Below, piece after piece: positions 2,568 to 49,052 of a DNA stretch of 49,052 nucleotides. This stretch comes from Desulfuromonadales bacterium (GTDB lineage: Bacteria > Desulfobacterota > Desulfuromonadia > Geobacterales > Pseudopelobacteraceae): positions 1 to 49,052 of the forward strand of contig DUZS01000028.1 of NCBI GenBank assembly GCA_013349405.1. Direction: 5' to 3'. The translations under genes and the position numbers were made by a program. Position 1 is the first letter of the stretch, and each line of letters opens with the position of its first letter. The notes under the pieces were generated by a model. That model was not told the DNA's origin, did no database searches, and saw nothing but the letters and a program-made list of their open reading frames with translations.

Positions 2568-4163
2568 ATGAAAGTATTCTGGAAAACAGGCGAACCGTAC
2601 GTACTGGCCACCGGCGCCGCCCTGGCGGTCATCCTGGTCATGAGCCTCACCCTGATCGGCACCGTCATGACCAACGGCCTCGGCTATTTCTGGCCGCGGG
2701 CACTGGTTCAATTCGAGCTGAAAGATGGTTCGCGAGTACTCGGCCAGATTACCCAGCAGGAGAAAAACCCGCTCAGCGGCGAGCGGCGTCTGCAGCTGAA
2801 AGTCGGCAACCGGGATATCTTCGGTCAGGATTTCCGCTGGATCGACGAGAAAGAGATCACCGCCCGCTCCCTGCCTGCTGATGCCGTGCTGCTGGAGCGG
2901 CGCGAACATGGCAACTATTTCGGCATGCTCAAGGATGTTACTGCAGAAGGCATTACCCTGACCGCAGCAACGCCGTATGAAAAACTGCAGCAGGCCCGCA
3001 AACTGGTGGCCGGCAAAATCGATGCTACCGCAAAAATCAAAAAACAGATGTCCGATCTGAACTACGCCGCCGAAAGCATTAGATTGAAACTGCAGAAACT
3101 TGAATATGACGGCAAGGAACAGAATGCCACCGCAATTGCCGAACTGACCGCTGTCCGCGAAAAAAAGATGGCCGAATTCACCACGCTGAACGAACAGGCC
3201 ACGGCGACCCTGGCTGAAATTGGTAAGATCACCGCCCGGATGACCGACGCCGCCGGCGGCAGCAAAGAGATCTCCCTTACCGAGATCATCGCCCTGCAGC
3301 GTCCCAACAGCATGTCGTTCCTTACCAAATGCGGAGCCTATCTGGAGCGGGTCCGCGAACTGCTCCTTGATGATCCCCGGGAATCCAATACCGAGGGGGG
3401 ACTCTTCCCGGCGATATTCGGCACGGTCATGATGGTGCTATTGATGAGTGTCTTCTCGCTCCCGTTCGGCGTGATCGCCGCCATCTATCTGCGTGAATAT
3501 GCCCGGGACGGCCTGCTGACCCGCATGGTCCGGATTGCGGTCAACAACCTTGCCGGTGTACCGTCAATCGTCTACGGCGTATTCGGCCTCGGCTTCTTTG
3601 TCTACGGTATCGGCGGCAGCATCGACTCCCTGTTCTTTCCGGAGCGGCTCCCCACTCCGACCTTCGGCACCGGCGGCATCCTCTGGTCGAGCCTGACCCT
3701 CGCACTGCTGACCGTACCGGTGGTGATTGTTGCCACCGAGGAGTCACTTGCCTCCATTCCGAAAGGGATCCGCGAAGGATCACTGGCACTCGGCGCCACC
3801 AAATTTCAGACCCTGACCAAAATCCTGCTCCCCATGGCAACTCCCGGTATCATGACCGGCCTTATTCTCTCCATGGCGAGAGCCGCCGGCGAAGTCGCCC
3901 CGCTGATGATCGTCGGCGTGGTCAAGCTGGCACCGACGCTCCCCTTTGATGCGAATTTCCCCTTCTTTCATATGGATCGTAAATTCATGCATCTCGGCTT
4001 CCATATCTACGACGTCGGTTTTCAATCACCCAACGTCGAGGCGGCCAAACCGATGGTGTACGTCACCACCATGCTGCTGCTCGCCATCGTCGTCATCGCC
4101 AGCAGCACCGCCATCTACCTGCGCAACCGGATGCGCAGCAAATATACGACATCGACGTTTTAA
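2568..4163 (+). CDS. pstA: Phosphate ABC transporter permease PstA, with internal coiled-coil insertion
   Basis: This 531-residue protein is the second permease of the phosphate importer. One membrane helix is near residues 15-37. About 220 mainly polar residues follow, including a lysine/glutamate-rich heptad-like region (about residues 135-225) that looks like a coiled coil. The usual PstA membrane core then starts near residue 280. The EAA loop is seen as REGSLALGATKFQTLTKILLP. Typical PstA is about 280-300 residues. The insertion matches the enlarged PstC next door, so the two extra parts may contact each other; that is inference. pstB begins 9 bases downstream. Confidence 0.9.
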   Translation: MKVFWKTGEPYVLATGAALAVILVMSLTLIGTVMTNGLGYFWPRALVQFELKDGSRVLGQITQQEKNPLSGERRLQLKVGNRDIFGQDFRWIDEKEITARSLPADAVLLERREHGNYFGMLKDVTAEGITLTAATPYEKLQQARKLVAGKIDATAKIKKQMSDLNYAAESIRLKLQKLEYDGKEQNATAIAELTAVREKKMAEFTTLNEQATATLAEIGKITARMTDAAGGSKEISLTEIIALQRPNSMSFLTKCGAYLERVRELLLDDPRESNTEGGLFPAIFGTVMMVLLMSVFSLPFGVIAAIYLREYARDGLLTRMVRIAVNNLAGVPSIVYGVFGLGFFVYGIGGSIDSLFFPERLPTPTFGTGGILWSSLTLALLTVPVVIVATEESLASIPKGIREGSLALGATKFQTLTKILLPMATPGIMTGLILSMARAAGEVAPLMIVGVVKLAPTLPFDANFPFFHMDRKFMHLGFHIYDVGFQSPNVEAAKPMVYVTTMLLLAIVVIASSTAIYLRNRMRSKYTTSTF

Positions 4164-4965: not shown

Positions 4966-5637
4966 ATGGAGAACGAACACATCAGTAAGGCATTCGATAT
5001 TGAGTTGAATTTTCTGCGGCAGAGCATCCTGATCATGGGCGGCAAGGTGGAGTTGATGATTGCCGACTCGGTTAAATCGCTCGTCGAAAGGGACACCGTC
5101 CTTGCCGAGCGCACGATTGCACTGGATCATGAGGTCAACGCCGCAGAGGTGGCAATAGATGAGCACTGCCTGGAGCTGTTGGCGTTGCGCCAACCGGTTG
5201 GGCGCGATCTCCGTTTCATTACGATCGCCCTCAAGATCGTTACCGATCTGGAACGGATCGGCGATCAATGCGCCAACATAGCCAAGCGGACCCGGGAGTT
5301 GAACGAAGAGCCGCCACTCAAACCGTATATCGACATCCCCCGCATGGCCCACCGGGCAGAGATCATGGTCAAGGAAGCGCTCGATGCCTTTGTTATCGGC
5401 GATGCAGATCTCGCCGTGAAGGTGTGTAATGATGACAGCTACGTCGATGACCTGAACAGCCAGATACAACGGGAGCTGCTGACCTATATGATCGAAGACC
5501 CGACGACAATTTCTCGCGCCATGAAACTCAACTATATATCAAAATCACTGGAGCGAGTTGCCGACCACGCCACCAACGTTGCCGAAATGGTTATCTTCAT
5601 GGTCAAGGGGAAGGATATCCGGCATATGATCGCGTGA
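4966..5637 (+). CDS. phoU: Phosphate signalling complex protein PhoU
   Basis: This 223-residue all-helical protein has the usual PhoU length and two repeated helical bundles. Metal-binding type motifs occur in each half, including DLERIGDQCANIAKRT (first) and SLERVADHATNVAEM (second). PhoU connects PstSCAB occupancy to the PhoR sensor kinase and limits phosphate uptake. A strong AAGGAG precedes the ATG. It is the last gene of the pst operon. Its TGA stop abuts the metH stop on the other strand, and no PhoR or PhoB is in the window. Confidence 0.96.
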   Translation: MENEHISKAFDIELNFLRQSILIMGGKVELMIADSVKSLVERDTVLAERTIALDHEVNAAEVAIDEHCLELLALRQPVGRDLRFITIALKIVTDLERIGDQCANIAKRTRELNEEPPLKPYIDIPRMAHRAEIMVKEALDAFVIGDADLAVKVCNDDSYVDDLNSQIQRELLTYMIEDPTTISRAMKLNYISKSLERVADHATNVAEMVIFMVKGKDIRHMIA

Positions 5638-42650: not shown

Positions 42651-42791
42651 AATAACACGGAGCAACGAAGCAACAGAGAGAGTCGACAGACTAAAAGATC
42701 ACTACCCCACAACGGTATTCCAAACGAACCAACAAAGACAACATTAAATATCTTATTTGTTTTCTCCGTTGCTCCGTTGCTCCGTGTTATT
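42651..42791. repeat. Short copy of the AATAACACGG inverted-repeat element
   Basis: A 141-bp unit has left end AATAACACGGAGCAACGAAG from 42651, and its right end finishes CTCCGTTGCTCCGTGTTATT at 42791, overlapping the trmFO stop by one base. The 80-base centre is non-coding. On the minus strand it keeps GTCTGTCGACTCTCTC near the left end. This parallels GTCTGTTGACTTTCTC at the 3' end of the GxxExxY gene in the 33292-33729 copy and suggests an internal-deletion derivative. Confidence 0.8.
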
Positions 42792-44095
42792 CATATCTGG
42801 TGCTTCCACTCTTCCAGCGCCACCAATGCACGCTCCGCCAACCTCTGCCGCCGTTCCTTCTTCTTGATCCTCCCCGGTAGCTCGGGAAAAAGTCCGTAAT
42901 TCACATTCATCGGCTGAAAATGCTTCACATCGGCATTGGTAATATGATGCATCAGGGCACCGAGAGCCGTTTCCGGTGCTGGTACCGGGATTGGCTGCCC
43001 CTGAACAAGATGAACAGCGGCAATACCGGCAAGAAAGCCGCTGGCGGCGGACTCAACATATCCTTCCACACCGGTAATCTGACCGGCGAAAAAAATACGG
43101 CCATCGCTTTTCAACTGCTGGGTTGTCTCCAGCAGAGCCGGAGAGTTGATAAAAGTATTGCGATGCATCGAACCGAGCCGCACAAATTCGGCACTCTCCA
43201 GGCCCGGTATCATGCGAAACACCCGCCGCTGCTCCGGCCAGGTCAGCTTGGTCTGAAAGCCGACCAGATTGTACATGGTTTTATCACGATTTTCGGCGCG
43301 TAGTTGTATGACCGCATGAGCCTCATGGCCGGTGTGCGGGTTAAGCAGGCCGACCGGCTTCATCGGGCCGAAACGCAAAGTTTCAACGCCGCGCGAGGCA
43401 AGCTCTTCCACCGGCATGCACCCTTCGAAGTGGACTACTTTTTCAAAGTCACGCGCCGGAACCTTCTCGCCACAATTCAACGCATCGATAAACGCCAGAT
43501 ATTCCTCTTCATTCAGCGGGCAGTTGAGGTAATCATCGCCATCCCCTTTGCCGTAGCGTGATGCGGCAAAGACCTTTGTCATATCAAGCGAATCGGCGGC
43601 GACAATCGGCGCAATAGCGTCATAGAAGTAGAGCCGGTCACCGGTCAGCTGAGTCAAAGAGGTGGCCAGGGCATCACTGGTGAGCGGCCCGGAGGCGATG
43701 ATAACGATACCTTCGGCAGGAATTTCAGTAGCTTCACCCCGCTCAATCCGGATCAGCGGATGTGACTCAATTTTTTCGGTAACGTATGCGGAGAAGAGTT
43801 GGCGATCAACCGCAAGTGCGCCACCGGCCGGGACCGCAGTGGCTTCGGCAGCCTCCATCGTCAAAGAACCGCAGCGGCGCAGTTCCTCTTTCAACAGCCC
43901 GACCGCGTTATCAAGCGAAATGCCACGCAGGGAATTGGAGCAGACGAGTTCCGCGAGCCCCGGAAGTTCGTGGGCCGGGGAGAACCGGAGCGGCTTCATT
44001 TCATGGACGACAACGGAGACGCCGCGCTGTGCGACCTGCCAGGCCGCTTCACTGCCGGCAAGACCGCCGCCGATGATGGTGATGTGGTTATTCAT
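42791..44095 (-). CDS. trmFO: TrmFO, folate/FAD-dependent tRNA m5U54 methyltransferase
   Basis: The frame opens at 44119, but AAAGGA precedes the ATG at 44095, giving 434 residues. The protein uses methylenetetrahydrofolate and FADH2 to make ribothymidine at tRNA position 54. The FAD-binding start is [16 protein letters not shown]. Family motifs include [43 protein letters not shown] and [16 protein letters not shown]. Length is typical. It lies 8 bases after the SEC-C gene, so the two are likely co-transcribed. Confidence 0.97.
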
Positions 44096-44103
44096 AGTTC
44101 CTT

Positions 44104-46515
44104 TCATTTTCCGCAACACTTTTTGAATTTTTTACCACTGCCACAGCTGCAGGGATCATTGCGCCCCACTTTGGCCGGGGCGCCGAACATGCTCTGACTG
44201 AGTGAAGGACCGGGGAAGGAGATGCGCTTTTTGTAATCATTGTAACCGGCTACGTAGGCGTTTATAAACTCACTTCGCTCATTGGGCTTAATATGATGAA
44301 AGACAACATTCGGCAGATGCCGTGCTCCCTCGTGCAGGGCAAAGAATGCTTTCTGATAATTGCCCTTTTGCTGTTCAAGCTGAGAAAGCTCAAACCACCC
44401 CTCGATCAGACGTGGTTCAATACGCACCGCTTCTTCATAACAGTCTGCAGCCTTGTCAAAACGCTTGATAAATCTGAGAATGTTCGCATACCCGAGCTGC
44501 AACTCGACCTTGGTCGGATGCCTGGCAATTTCCTTCTTATAAAGTGTAATAGCGTCAGTCAATCCCATCTCTCTCCCCATGGCGGTTAAGTGTGGCACAA
44601 TGGTGAGGGGTGAATCTTCTTCTGCTGCCATTCTGGCAATCTTGTCCTTGATTAACGTAAGCCGTATCAGTTCAACCGTTACTACCATCGAACCGGAAGA
44701 TGTAAGCGCAAGCGTATCTTCCCTGCCACAACCAAGACAGTTGAGATCATCGGCAATAAACGGTTTTGGCTCTGTCTGGCTGACAAACACCGACTCAACG
44801 GCATAATGAGAAATATCGCCGCAGGCACTGCATACCATCTCAAGATTCAGCTCATCCCGCGTTATTTTTCCCAGATCGCTGATGTCGAGAGCCGCCCGCC
44901 GTTCGGCGTCTTCTGCTTCGTAGGCAAGATACTCTTCTTCCAGAGCGGCAAGCTCTTCCGATTCGATCCCATGTAGCTTGTTCAGAATCAGGTAAGCGCG
45001 ATCAATCTCGCTCTGCCCTTTGCCGGTCAATGGCGCAAGGCGTGCGATAAAGCGCTGATCCGGAAGTGCTTCAATAGCTGATGCCAGAGTCTCCTTATCT
45101 GATTTTGCCAGCTCATCGAAATGGCGCTCAAAGTATGCCACAGCCAGTTCACTGCCGCTCTTTTCGAGAATGCCCTCCAGATAATAATGCTTATCTTCCT
45201 GATTAGACTCCAGCACTGTGATGATTGCACTCACCGCCTCCTCACCAAACCCGACCAGTGCCGTGGCGCACGCTTCACAGAGCAGGTCAAAATCTGCATG
45301 CGTAGCGTCAATTAACGGTGGGATAAACTCCCGATAGCGGAGTTGTCCCATAATTTCGGCAATACGCACTGAGCCGTACATGTCCCTCTGTTCTTCAAGT
45401 GCTTCGGTCAAGCGGGCAACCGCCTGAGCTCTTTCCAGCGTGGTAAAATGAGCGACAATAGCGTCTGTGACCGGCACATCCTGCAGATTCGTCGTCAGAA
45501 AGGAAAGTATGGCGTCAGTTTCATCCATGGCTGGTTCCGGATTCGCAACCCATGCAGCTGCGGCAATACAGGCAGGAAACAGCGCGAACAGGCCGGTGGC
45601 TGCATCGTGTTCGTCAAGGTCCGGAATGTTCTGCCAGATATCCCGGCAGGCATCAAGTACCAGGATCACCCTCTCCGGCAGGCGCTGCTTATGCTGCTCA
45701 TAAAAAGCCAACGCAGGGCGATATTCGAGGTTACCAAGTTTTCTGATAACGTCATCCAATTCGACCGCAAGTATGCTCGGTACAAACAACGGGATCTCTG
45801 CAAACTTCGGGACAATGTACCCTTCCCATTCATCCTGAATCATCGTGAGTGGTTCGGTCGTGCCCATCAAAGTACCCATCAGAAATTTAAGATCACTATC
45901 GATGGCATCCAGTTTCAGCTCCGGCATGGCAGTAGCAATTATCCTGATAAGATCAAGTAGCTGGAGATGATGCGCATTCCAGGCTAGATCCGTCAGCACA
46001 ATCGTCATTGTCGGGTTTCGCGTTGGGTACCCGGCTTTATTATAAAATTCCTTCATGCACGCGTCGGCAAATTGTCTCAGCATCAGTTCCGGCAATTCAC
46101 CCGCTGCTCCGATTATGGCGTATAACCGTTCCGGTTCGTGCGGTGACTGCTGCAAAAATTCCAGAAATATCTCCAGAGCACGTTCGGGCCAATGCCGGGC
46201 CAGCAAACCCAGGGGGTAAGAGGAATTCCAGGCGGGAAGATCCCGCCATATGTCAGCCAGAAAAGGGAGATGCGGCTGCAACAGATCATCCGGCAGTTCG
46301 CGGAACAGGCATAGCAACAGAAAATCGTCAGTGAACTCGGACATCAGTAAACTGATGGTTGCTTCATCGAACAGGGCACGTATCGCCATGTCAGCAGAAG
46401 TTTCATTCCACCGACGCAGATCTCTGATATTGGCAAGCGCCCACTGCGCGATCAGGGGGTCACGGGTGTGAATCTGGCTGAATGGAATGCCTGCAAATGA
46501 TGGTGTGGTGTTCAT
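44104..46515 (-). CDS. Large helical-repeat protein with C-terminal SEC-C motif
   Basis: The frame opens at 46551; the ATG at 46515 follows CGAGGCCACC and gives 803 residues. Most of it is HEAT-like or alpha-solenoid sequence (for example [26 protein letters not shown]). A small cysteine region (CSACG and CLGCG, about residues 595-640) may bind zinc. TPR-like helices follow ([28 protein letters not shown]). The last 20 residues form a SEC-C zinc motif, [22 protein letters not shown] tails are adaptor motifs also found in SecA. The function is unknown. It is the last gene before the attC-bounded cassette region. Confidence 0.8.
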
Positions 46516-46595
46516 GGTGGCCTCGTTATCGAATATTGCCTTGTAAAGCAACCCTTAAGCTCCCCTGATGCGCTTGATTCAAGGCTCTCGTGGTA

Positions 46596-46656
46596 GCTCA
46601 ACGGCTCGGCAGAACACCTGCCGGTTTTTAGGGCAGGTGCTTCTGTCTGGTTATAC
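46596..46656 (-). repeat. Integron-type attC site A
   Basis: On the minus strand the 61 bases read: R'' GTATAAC (46656-46650), spacer CAGA, L'' CAGAA (46645-46641), extrahelical G (46640), stem CACCTGCC, loop CTAAAAACC, stem GGCAGGTG, L' TTCTG (46614-46610), spacer CCGAGCC, R' GTTGAGC (46602-46596). R' fits GTTRRRY. The site begins 3 bases after the stop of the 132-residue gene, the usual place for an attC. It aligns base for base with site B, with covarying stems. Confidence 0.85.
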
Positions 46657-46659
46657 ATT

Positions 46660-47058
46660 TCAGCTTGGAGCTAGTTGAGAACATTTAGGACACCGGTAAA
46701 TTCCGTACTCAGAATTATGAACACCTAAATCAGATAGATTGTCAGGAAAGCATTTCGCGCAGTACTTACCGCCTTTTGTTTTGTGGCTGTAGTAGTGTCT
46801 AAGTTCATCAAAATTGTAGTCTTCTTTTCTAACCCTATATTTCAACTTCAATATTATAAGAGAGGATATTAATGCTGATACCAATATCAGTGATACAGCT
46901 AATGCTGTTACTTGTTGTTCCTTTGTTAGTATTTTATCAAAGTCGAAAGGATAAGTTGCCGGAGCGTGAGCAAGCAGCCATACTATTAGGGATGTGGATA
47001 TCAACCATACTATTCGCTGTTGAATGTCTTTTAGAAGGAGTTCGATGATTTTATGCAT
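46660..47058 (-). CDS. Two-helix membrane protein with C-terminal zinc ribbon, unknown function
   Basis: This 132-residue protein has two likely membrane helices, about residues 16-31 (IVWLISTSLIVWLLAH) and 48-71 (VTALAVSLILVSALISSLIILKL). A cytoplasmic or external tail has two cysteine pairs, CAKC and CPKC (about residues 98 and 124), typical of a small zinc ribbon. GAGGG lies 9 bases before the ATG. I do not recognise the family. It is the attC-proximal gene of the predicted cassette and ends three bases before site A. Confidence 0.75.
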   Translation of the reverse strand: MHKIIELLLKDIQQRIVWLISTSLIVWLLAHAPATYPFDFDKILTKEQQVTALAVSLILVSALISSLIILKLKYRVRKEDYNFDELRHYYSHKTKGGKYCAKCFPDNLSDLGVHNSEYGIYRCPKCSQLAPS

Positions 47059-47101
47059 TGAAAATTTCCCTCGTTATTTCTGTTCTAACTTGGTTTTAAA
47101 G

Positions 47102-47123
47102 CGTCACCTAATTAAGGGTGACG
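47102..47123 (-). terminator. Small hairpin at the end of the secreted-protein gene
   Basis: CGTCACC (47102-47108) pairs with GGTGACG (47117-47123) around an AT-rich loop that includes the gene's stop codon. On the minus strand TTTAAAA follows, so termination would be weak. It lacks R boxes and an extrahelical base and is not an attC. Confidence 0.4.
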
Positions 47124-47623
47124 GTAGTAAGTGTGACTCCATCAGATATCAATAACTTCTTGAATTTCAACCGGCGAAGGTCAGATAATAGTTTGTTGTC
47201 ATTTGCCAATCTTTTTCTTAAAGCACAGTTAATTTTCAGGGTGGTATTACCTTTACCCTGTACCGAGACTGTGCCACGAATTCCTTTATAATCGAGTTCT
47301 GTCTCGTAGTACTTTGCAAAGTTCTTTCTGTCTTCAATTTGCCCGACTGCTTCGTACTTTATATCCTCTCCAGCCTCTTTTTTCTCAAGTGCTGGGAGCT
47401 TAGCATATATCCGTTGGGCTTCTTTGTACTCTGGAGCAGTTTTAGGGATGGCATCCAGCTGAATCCTTGCTACATGAGGTTGGCCGTATTTCAAGAACCT
47501 TTTTGCGTCAGCTAGGTGTTCTGCAGGTGATTTATTATAAAACGCAGGACTTGCATTCTCGTTAGCAAACGCTGATTGAGCAAAAATAGTCATACAAAGA
47601 AATGCTACAGCAAGCAGCCTCAT
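47108..47623 (-). CDS. Secreted or periplasmic protein of unknown function
   Basis: The frame opens at 47707, but those codons overlap the predicted attC. The ATG at 47623 with AGAGGAG upstream gives 171 residues. A Sec signal peptide (MRLLAVAFLCMTIFAQSAFA) is followed by a helical segment, SPAEHLADAKRFLKYGQPHVARIQLDAIPKTAPEYKEAQRIYAKLP, resembling a TPR-type hairpin. A strand-rich end follows (ELDYKGIRGTVSVQGKGNTTLKINC). I do not recognise the family. It is the first gene of the predicted cassette, 50 bases before the membrane zinc-ribbon gene. Confidence 0.75.
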   Translation of the reverse strand: MRLLAVAFLCMTIFAQSAFANENASPAFYNKSPAEHLADAKRFLKYGQPHVARIQLDAIPKTAPEYKEAQRIYAKLPALEKKEAGEDIKYEAVGQIEDRKNFAKYYETELDYKGIRGTVSVQGKGNTTLKINCALRKRLANDNKLLSDLRRLKFKKLLISDGVTLTTVTLN

Positions 47624-47694
47624 ATATTTCTCCTCTTGGGTAATTGTGCCTACTACGGAGCACTCCGTTATTTTCTGGGGTTTTCGGTTTTGTT

Positions 47695-47754
47695 GTATAA
47701 CGGGCATGAAGTTGACCCGCCGGTTTTTGGGCGGGTCGAACTTTCTGGTTGGAA
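47695..47754 (-). repeat. Integron-type attC site B
   Basis: On the minus strand the 60 bases read: R'' TTCCAAC (47754-47748), spacer CAGA, L'' AAGTT (47743-47739), extrahelical C (47738), stem GACCCGCC, loop CAAAAACC, stem GGCGGGTC, L' AACTT (47713-47709), spacer CATGCCC, R' GTTATAC (47701-47695). The plan is identical to site A, but the L stems and inner stems have changed on both sides to keep pairing. R'' and R' here come from different cassettes, which explains their poor match. Confidence 0.85.
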
Positions 47755-47853
47755 ATTTTCTTTTTCGCCATTGTTTATATGAATTTTGTCAAAGGCGTAG
47801 GTTTTGACACCTCACTGCTATTAGTTTTGATGAGGCTTAAATGTGTCATTGAA

Positions 47854-48021
47854 TTATAAAGTGCATCTGAAACATATCCACTTTGTTTCCAATTTGTCAT
47901 AATCCATTTCATTTCCGCATGTCGAACAAGTAGGCGTATTTTCTGCCTGCTCACATTTTGAGTTATCGCCATAAACATATTGAAGTGCAAGCAAGTCTTC
48001 CAGCAAGTCGGGTTTATTCAT
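47854..48021 (-). CDS. Small zinc-ribbon protein, 55 aa
   Basis: This short ORF begins MNKPDLLEDLLALQYVYGDN and has two CxxC pairs, C32-C35 (CSTC) and C50-C53 (CFRC), with 14 residues between, a rubredoxin-like or zinc-ribbon spacing. GAGG lies 8 bases before its ATG, which is 12 bases after the stop of the upstream GIY-YIG gene, so the two are probably co-translated. It overlaps a longer frame without such signals, which I consider spurious. The function is unknown; it could be a partner or antitoxin-like regulator of its neighbour, but nothing in the sequence proves this. Confidence 0.65.
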   Translation of the reverse strand: MNKPDLLEDLLALQYVYGDNSKCEQAENTPTCSTCGNEMDYDKLETKWICFRCTL

Positions 48022-48032
48022 AAGTGGCCTCG

Positions 48033-48944
48033 TTAAATATCAAACTTTTGGTTTGCATGATACTCAGCTTCTTCCCAGCTCATTTTAAGATTTTCGGCAA
48101 GAAAGTTTTTATAATTTGTTACAAAATCGAAAACTCCTTCCCATCGTACTCTTTGTCGTTCAGTTCGTTGCCTAAAAGCGTTAGACTGAAAGAGTAAATC
48201 CCAATGCCTTTTAGCTTCTGCTGTATTGTTAGTTTCTCCGAAATATGAAGCCAATGCCGCATATGACAGCTCGTATCCGTGTTTTAACGCTATTCTATGA
48301 CATTCAAGCCCTTTACCAGCATGACCTTGCCTATATCCATTTAAAGCATTATCGTTACCGAAAAGTTTGTGAAATATTGTTTTTCGCTCAAATTGTATCG
48401 GAATTCGACCAATCCCTTGTGCCTCAAAAAGATGTATAAATCCTTGTTCATAATAAGCTCTAACACATCCCTTTTCCGCTGCCTTTCTATACATATCTAG
48501 AGCTTTATCGACGTCGAGGTCATAGTTTGGTGTTTTCATATATTTATCTGCTTCTCGGACTAAATCAGCCCAGTCAGCACTATTGCTTTGAACTTTTGCT
48601 ACTTGTTTAATTTTAGACGCGGATAATGCTTTTTCGGACGCTATCCCTATGAAATCCGCTGTAGATTTTATAGCATTAATAGCTTCCTGGAGAGGAGCTT
48701 GGAAAAATTCCCGATTACTGCTTACACGAAATCCCTTTTTTTCGAGTATTCCGTGTGCATACTTCTCGCCTAGATCACAATCGGCTATACATACACTGTG
48801 GGCAACCATAAACTGCATCGGAACGCCGGTTGCAGAAGATAGTTCATTTGCCCTTTTGTCTGGGTTTGTGGTTGTTTTACCTACCTTAACAAGCCCTTCT
48901 AAAGCTGGATTTATAAGTGCGTAAATATAACCAGGGTTTCCCAT
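48033..48944 (-). CDS. GIY-YIG-like (T5orf172/MUG113 type) protein with Sel1-like repeats
   Basis: This 303-residue protein starts GYIYALINPALEGLVKVGKT, the strand pair of a GIY-YIG nuclease fold in its T5orf172/MUG113 variant. ANELSSATGVPMQF, a histidine in YAHGILEKKGFRV and the acidic NREFFQAPL near residue 80 complete the domain. After a linker, Sel1/TPR-like helices follow (ALDMYRKAAEKGCVRAYYEQGFIHL and GLECHRIALKHGYELSYAALASYFG). Related proteins occur in phages and mobile regions. GAGG precedes the ATG, three bases after the stop of a further gene. It is AT-rich. Confidence 0.78.
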   Translation of the reverse strand: MGNPGYIYALINPALEGLVKVGKTTTNPDKRANELSSATGVPMQFMVAHSVCIADCDLGEKYAHGILEKKGFRVSSNREFFQAPLQEAINAIKSTADFIGIASEKALSASKIKQVAKVQSNSADWADLVREADKYMKTPNYDLDVDKALDMYRKAAEKGCVRAYYEQGFIHLFEAQGIGRIPIQFERKTIFHKLFGNDNALNGYRQGHAGKGLECHRIALKHGYELSYAALASYFGETNNTAEAKRHWDLLFQSNAFRQRTERQRVRWEGVFDFVTNYKNFLAENLKMSWEEAEYHANQKFDI

Positions 48945-48947
48945 TAT

Positions 48948-49052
48948 TCACCTCATATTTTGTTTTATACGCTTTGCTAAACATTTCTTCTGTATTTCTA
49001 GCGAGTTTACAATATGCTGATTAATTATTTGTTCGTATGCATCAATCTCTGT
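48948..49052 (-). CDS. C-terminal end of an unknown protein (partial)
   Basis: An open frame enters from the window edge and ends with TGA at 48950-48948, giving 34 residues: TEIDAYEQIINQHIV then NSLEIQKKCLAKRIKQNMR. It is helical and ends in a basic stretch. The stop lies 3 bases before the ATG of the GIY-YIG gene, and the sequence before that ATG (ATGAGG) lies within this frame. A co-transcribed gene is therefore likely. The family cannot be told from so little. Confidence 0.5.
   Translation of the reverse strand, partial: TEIDAYEQIINQHIVNSLEIQKKCLAKRIKQNMR

Follow-up and report, generated by a model that had tools for sequence, protein, structure and literature searches.

Two attC sites and a complete gene cassette, probably part of an integrase-less cluster between topA and trmFO in a Desulfuromonadales bacterium

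Clusters of attC sites lacking an integron integrase are known as CALINs (IntegronFinder 2.0, PMC9024848), and their counts are inflated in draft genomes because similar attC sites break assemblies (PMC9024848). Published work already covers intI genes of Geobacter, CALINs, and also intI pseudogenes, to which nearly a third of the surveyed genes belong (PMC2426708, PMC9024848). The integrases of 'clade 15', which belong to chromosomal integrons of Geobacter and other Deltaproteobacteria, carry a gene fusion of about 120 residues (PMC2426708). Within the genus Treponema, integrons have been lost (PMC3607928).

The locus described here lies at the right end of the window, by which we mean the whole stretch of 49,052 nucleotides that was analysed. 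It agrees with a CALIN, as the available parts of PMC9024848 present it, in having at least two close attC sites in one orientation and, given a contig join discussed below, no intI beside them; there is no difference in kind, and what is also known here are the flanking topA and trmFO genes, one cassette whose ends close exactly and, at another place in the genome, a broken intI. Compared with the Geobacter chromosomal integrons covered by the available parts of PMC2426708, the window's genome differs in that its assembly holds no intact intI; the integrases of its relatives have an extra N-terminal part that fits the fusion reported there for clade 15, and attC sites of the same type adjoin the relatives' intI genes. 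With Treponema (PMC3607928, again as far as the available text goes) it shares the decay or loss of integron systems in some lineages of a genus otherwise having them, and it differs in that attC sites and cassettes persist here after intI was broken. Among the papers listed by literature searches on Geobacter integrons (including those of Geobacter metallireducens), attC sites and gene cassettes, no title concerns this locus. An earlier reading, made from the letters of the window and hereafter called the sequence-only reading, had named the region 'undescribed', which holds for the new instance and not for the kind: the locus is a further instance of an already known element type.

The two attC sites and the cassette between them

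An attC site is an imperfect inverted repeat of which one single strand folds into a hairpin that is bound by IntI and cut in R' between the G and the TT. Two such sites had been claimed on the minus strand near the end of the window, and both are present where they had been placed, folding as had been described.

46596..46656, minus strand: attC site 1 (the left one, closing the cassette downstream), from alignment, DNA fold and covariance models
47695..47754, minus strand: attC site 2 (right), from alignment, DNA fold and covariance models
46602..47700, minus strand: complete gene cassette (1099 bp), starting with the first T behind the cut in site 2 and ending with the G of site 1
47108..47623, minus strand: cassette gene 1, 171 aa, secreted-looking (signal-like N-terminus by inspection)
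46660..47058, minus strand: cassette gene 2, 132 aa, membrane-looking (two CxxC pairs by inspection)

Site 1 is made up of R'' GTATAAC (46656-46650), the L stem CAGAA/TTCTG, a single unpaired G, the inner stem CACCTGCC/GGCAGGTG with the loop CTAAAAACC, the spacer CCGAGCC and R' GTTGAGC (46602-46596). Site 2 has, in the same order, R'' TTCCAAC (47754-47748), AAGTT/AACTT, a single unpaired C, GACCCGCC/GGCGGGTC with the loop CAAAAACC, CATGCCC and R' GTTATAC (47701-47695). In both, R'' ends in AAC and R' starts with GTT, as is expected of attC core sites, and the imperfect inverted repeat shows the L stem, the unpaired base and the spacer of an attC, with its changes compensated in pairs. In the aligned sequences, 5 of the 13 stem pairs differ between the two sites, always with both sides changed and with none broken, which bears out the earlier claim that the stems differ and keep their pairing. 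When folded as single-stranded DNA, site 1 reaches -12.9 kcal/mol (z -3.93) and site 2 -12.6 kcal/mol (z -4.22), with 0 of 200 shuffles equally good in either case; the minimum-energy fold of both consists of a 5-bp stem, the unpaired base and an 8-bp stem, and leaves the outer R''/R' arms outside. By convention we take the folding (bottom) strand of these sites to be the window's plus strand. An Rfam scan of the window returned one tRNA and nothing at either site, and a scan of the window for the loop pattern gave 12 matches vs 5.6 expected and is not used as evidence. Together with the covariance models presented below, we regard it as confirmed that both hairpins are attC integron recombination sites, whose recombination by IntI is predicted from their sequence.

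The R'' of an attC derives from the start of its own cassette and is hence complementary to the R' of the site just upstream in the array. In the window, R'' of site 1 is the exact reverse complement of R' of site 2, so that 4 of 4 variable bases agree, a point that the sequence-only reading had not made. The interval 47700-46602 is one complete cassette, judged to be so because both of its ends still match, as they would in an excised circle; its borders presume the cut position given above. In 500-bp steps, the G+C fraction is 0.50-0.53 over 44000-46499 and 0.38-0.42 over 46500-48999, the drop falling at the first attC site, and a promoter scan found 4 patterns vs 6.0 in shuffles.

Neither cassette gene belongs to a Pfam family above cut-off. 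Among about 5.8 billion proteins, gene 1 has 5 matches, itself included, and gene 2 has 2, at 94 and 75% identity; both proteins are near-orphans, and these two near-orphans are now placed on a cassette. The family of gene 1 has matches in 5 of the 141 genomes of the order, its own included, and two genome-contig scans with gene 1 and its family found no relative. As to the setting of its relatives, attC-like matches (E 0.003 and 0.09) flank the one in genome G074 and two stronger same-strand matches are nearby, the only attC match in G002 has E 0.7, and G070 and G082 have none at E <= 1. The label 'Geobacter-like', given to the genome earlier, fits insofar as a homologue of a cassette protein is named Geobacter by NCBI.

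The block between topA and trmFO

The window is the whole of contig C28, and it breaks off in the cassette that precedes the complete one, so that what lies further upstream has to be sought on another contig, C18.

47701..49052, minus strand: downstream portion of the cassette before, truncated where the contig ends; runs on into C18 provided that the 8-bp overlap is genuine
47854..48021, minus strand: 55-aa protein with two CxxC pairs
48033..48944, minus strand: T5orf172 protein, 303 aa (PF10544, 49.2 bits, cut-off 20)
48948..49052, minus strand: peptidase-like gene, last 34 codons and stop; its first part is at the start of C18 (L126:3-449)
C18:605-679: third attC, in the same orientation as the window's two given the join
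42791..44119, minus strand: trmFO (GidA family), a conserved gene that borders the block on its right
44104..46551, minus strand: 815-aa TPR/SEC-C gene between the last attC and trmFO

The T5orf172 protein, presumably GIY-YIG-type, also matches the defence-related PADLOC model PDC-S57 (E 6.4e-24). The peptidase-like gene is not recognised by Pfam; it has an HExxH motif by inspection and a weak PADLOC match (Lit model, E 1.5e-5). Its last 8 bases on C18 recur as the opening 8 of the window's minus strand with the reading frame preserved, and its homologue on a stretch of another genome (L137, of G001) covers both the C18 and the C28 parts. That stretch is 82.6% identical to window positions 48751-49052, and its attC matches at 3360-3444 and 5160-5231 enclose the peptidase-like gene and the T5orf172 gene. 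Based on 8 bp, one reading frame and one homologue, and not on reads, the C18-C28 join is probably true. Reading from topA towards its start, C18 carries an HD-domain gene, a 201-aa gene, a Sel1-repeat gene, the third attC and the peptidase-like gene running off the contig. Matches to defence-related PADLOC models were also seen on C18 (L126:676-4223), where the 201-aa gene resembles DarG (2.2e-9) and the HD gene a dGTPase (4.5e-7).

Given the join, three attC sites in one orientation lie between topA and trmFO, which are about 9.5 kb apart, and no intI was found in the interval, C18 and C28 taken together. We therefore consider it most likely, with a probability of about 0.85, that the right end of the window is the downstream part of a CALIN, since an intI beyond 49052 is improbable where an overlapping contig continues past a third attC and reaches topA, which usually adjoins trmFO. 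The sequence-only reading had left the choice between an integron array and an orphan attC cluster, and had pointed to the sequence beyond 49052 as the place to look for intI; provided that the 8-bp join is true, none was found on C18 as far as topA, and of the two the orphan cluster is favoured. Several observations speak against this reading. The join has only 8 bp to it, and the cassette that spans it does not close, R' being GTTGGTC on C18 and R'' TTCCAAC in the window (2 of 4 variable bases). Moreover, among the 11 attC sites first listed in this genome an exact start motif upstream is found for site 1 only, leaving the other 10 without an exact cassette border.

If the cluster is a CALIN, an integron integrase would have placed the cassette 47700-46602, and this enzyme may have been the genome's own, of which a broken piece would survive on contig C4, or may have come from elsewhere. 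The cassettes would by now probably be stationary, because no intact integrase was found in the assembly, and their genes would be ordinary accessory genes. The locus would thereby offer a checkable case of cassettes outliving their integrase, in which the probable former platform on C4, the C18 and C28 cluster, scattered attC sites and relatives whose topA adjoins trmFO can be compared in one genus.

The 815-aa TPR/SEC-C gene was considered as a further cassette and rejected, as no attC closes it. In 28 other genomes it finds only short matches, to its C-terminal motif or its repeats.

Integrase genes and other attC sites in the genome

The assembly, which is 96% complete and consists of 60 contigs so that an intI could be missing from it, contains no sequence that scores above cut-off for either of the two IntI families tried. 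Weaker full-length IntI-family matches on C7 and C12 are taken for putative Xer-type recombinases. The best intI match of the assembly is on C4, corresponds to residues 144-301 of a relative's 469-aa IntI, lies in two frames and lacks the catalytic end. On its array side, facing away from it, is an attC match that the relative-based model R3 (see below) scores at E 4e-5 and that the earlier model R2 does not list at E <= 1, and a PIN/MazE-type toxin-antitoxin-like pair lies between the two. The segment L065:3938-5811 on C4 is thus probably a former integron platform with a frameshifted intI piece. The IntI proteins of relatives (L055:1033-2442; L044, L045, L046) are about 450-470 aa long, with the extra N-terminal part mentioned above; one relative's IntI matches IntI4 (2a3v) over residues 162-455, and a single-sequence structure model of a relative's IntI had a mean pLDDT of 35.9, too low to be of use.

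A first listing gives 11 attC sites in this genome, the window's two included, and R3 adds the one on C4. Two same-strand sites occur in three regions besides the window, one on C17 and two on C10, and some sites stand single beside ordinary genes. The sequence-only reading was to be given up if covariance models missed both sites and the same stem-loops lay scattered at ordinary gene ends; the second is in part the case, yet both sites match, and the scattered stem-loops score as attC themselves. At L066:346-2257 (C10), two same-strand matches enclose a TumE-type toxin gene with an HTH gene, and a DUF4160/DUF2442 pair. At L129:7899-7974 (C10), a degenerate attC-like site has GGTATAG in place of a GTT-type R' and adjoins ordinary genes; from its sequence it is probably an eroded single attC site.

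These observations bear on an unlikely alternative that overlaps with the favoured reading, namely that an integrase acting in trans inserted the cassettes at a place between topA and trmFO which had never held an integron, and that the CALIN is hence not a decayed one. It is consistent with the spread of attC sites over several contigs while the intI piece is on C4, and with the finding of no intI remnant between topA and trmFO. In 15 of 23 relatives, the end of topA is found no more than 1.5 kb before trmFO (of the remaining eight trmFO loci, three reach less than 0.75 kb upstream), and the trmFO loci of all 23 show no attC at E <= 0.5. However, the start motif predicted for the Sel1 cassette was not found on C18, other scattered sites are likewise without exact starts, and some genes of the block (HD, 201 aa, SEC-C) have no attC, so that the block may be the work of a different element. 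Were planting in trans correct, an attC cluster without intI would be a primary product of integrons too, and not only a ruin, and the broken C4 intI would be the lost source.

Less likely again is that the window's end belongs to a complete integron cut by the contig end, with intI and attI just beyond 49052. The contig does end inside the array, draft genomes do inflate CALIN counts (PMC9024848), and an intI above the family cut-off is present in 20 of the 39 genomes searched, this genome being counted among the 39. On the other hand, C18 overlaps the window's end within one gene and, given the join, has no intI beside the array; an IntI query found nothing in the window and, in L126, only a 36-residue match, of E 0.05 and located at 13 kb. 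The reading with an intact integron past position 49052 is therefore rejected on the C18 overlap, which, given the join, leads to topA with no intI found.

attC models across related genomes

A first covariance model (R1), built from four sites of this genome, has matches at E <= 0.01 in 36 of the 39 genomes, its own included, and at E <= 1 in 4 of 9 intI-bearing stretches of relatives (L058, L059, L063, L064). The second (R2), from 50 matches that include the window's two sites, lists 6 matches in the window with filters off, the two sites at 87.2 and 71.4 bits and the next at 17.2 bits (E 0.1); it adds L060, and two further intI-bearing stretches, L140 and L141, also match. In 7 of these 11 stretches the attC matches are divergent from intI and read away from it; the other four (L056, L057, L061, L062) have no attC match, and their array sides extend for no more than 1.7 kb.

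Because R2 contains the window's sites, R3 was built to avoid circularity: its sources are 34 matches, spread over 8 stretches that belong to 7 other genomes in which intI is intact, and it holds no site of this genome; the source sites were picked and aligned with R2, which does include such sites. One source stretch, L130, belongs to the L064 array, its sites lying 9-18 kb from intI, and one match that was kept, L063:8010-8084, is on the wrong side of intI relative to the array and perhaps not an attC. The covariance check that had been called for earlier turns out clearly, R3 matching the window's two sites at E 5.5e-18 and E 1.9e-13. It also finds 10 further places in 7 stretches of this genome at E <= 4e-5, and one more at E 3.4. 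Covariation in the 34 source sites is 0.439 vs 0.133 when shuffled, with 0 of 500 shuffles as high; of five covariation measures, the one for further pair types does not stand out from shuffles (294 of 500). The AAC/GTT pairs outside the hairpin are kept in 33-34 of the 34 sites, and matches on both strands occur in 0 of 27 loci, 4 of which hold one site only.

The complementarity of R' and R'' seen in the window recurs widely: 30 of 82 neighbouring attC pairs agree in all four variable bases, when 10,000 shuffles give a mean of 3.3 and a maximum of 10 full agreements, and the mean agreement is 2.68 vs 1.64 shuffled (sd 0.10). Left out of these counts and of the strand count were 3 hits of L132, a stretch of the contig that also contains L063, and 2 pairs of neighbours separated by more than 3500 bp. 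This echo between neighbours amounts to a simple test for cassette borders that is independent of the hairpin score.

It is very improbable that the hairpins are transcription terminators or REP-like repeats and not recombination sites: a scan for terminator-like patterns does mark plus-strand hairpins overlapping both sites (6 patterns in the region vs 2.1, sd 1.7, in shuffles), and single sites beside ordinary genes would suit such elements, but this reading is rejected on the AAC/GTT pairing outside the hairpin, the strand uniformity and the R'/R'' echo, which requires cassette exchange and has no reason to arise in a terminator, and no plus-strand gene near the sites is evident in the list of open reading frames.

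A smaller observation concerns the starts of cassettes: the first ~75 bp after the attC are common to the complete cassette (window:47627-47700) and to one on C17 (L067:7476-7547), at 86.7% identity, and the genes that follow are different.
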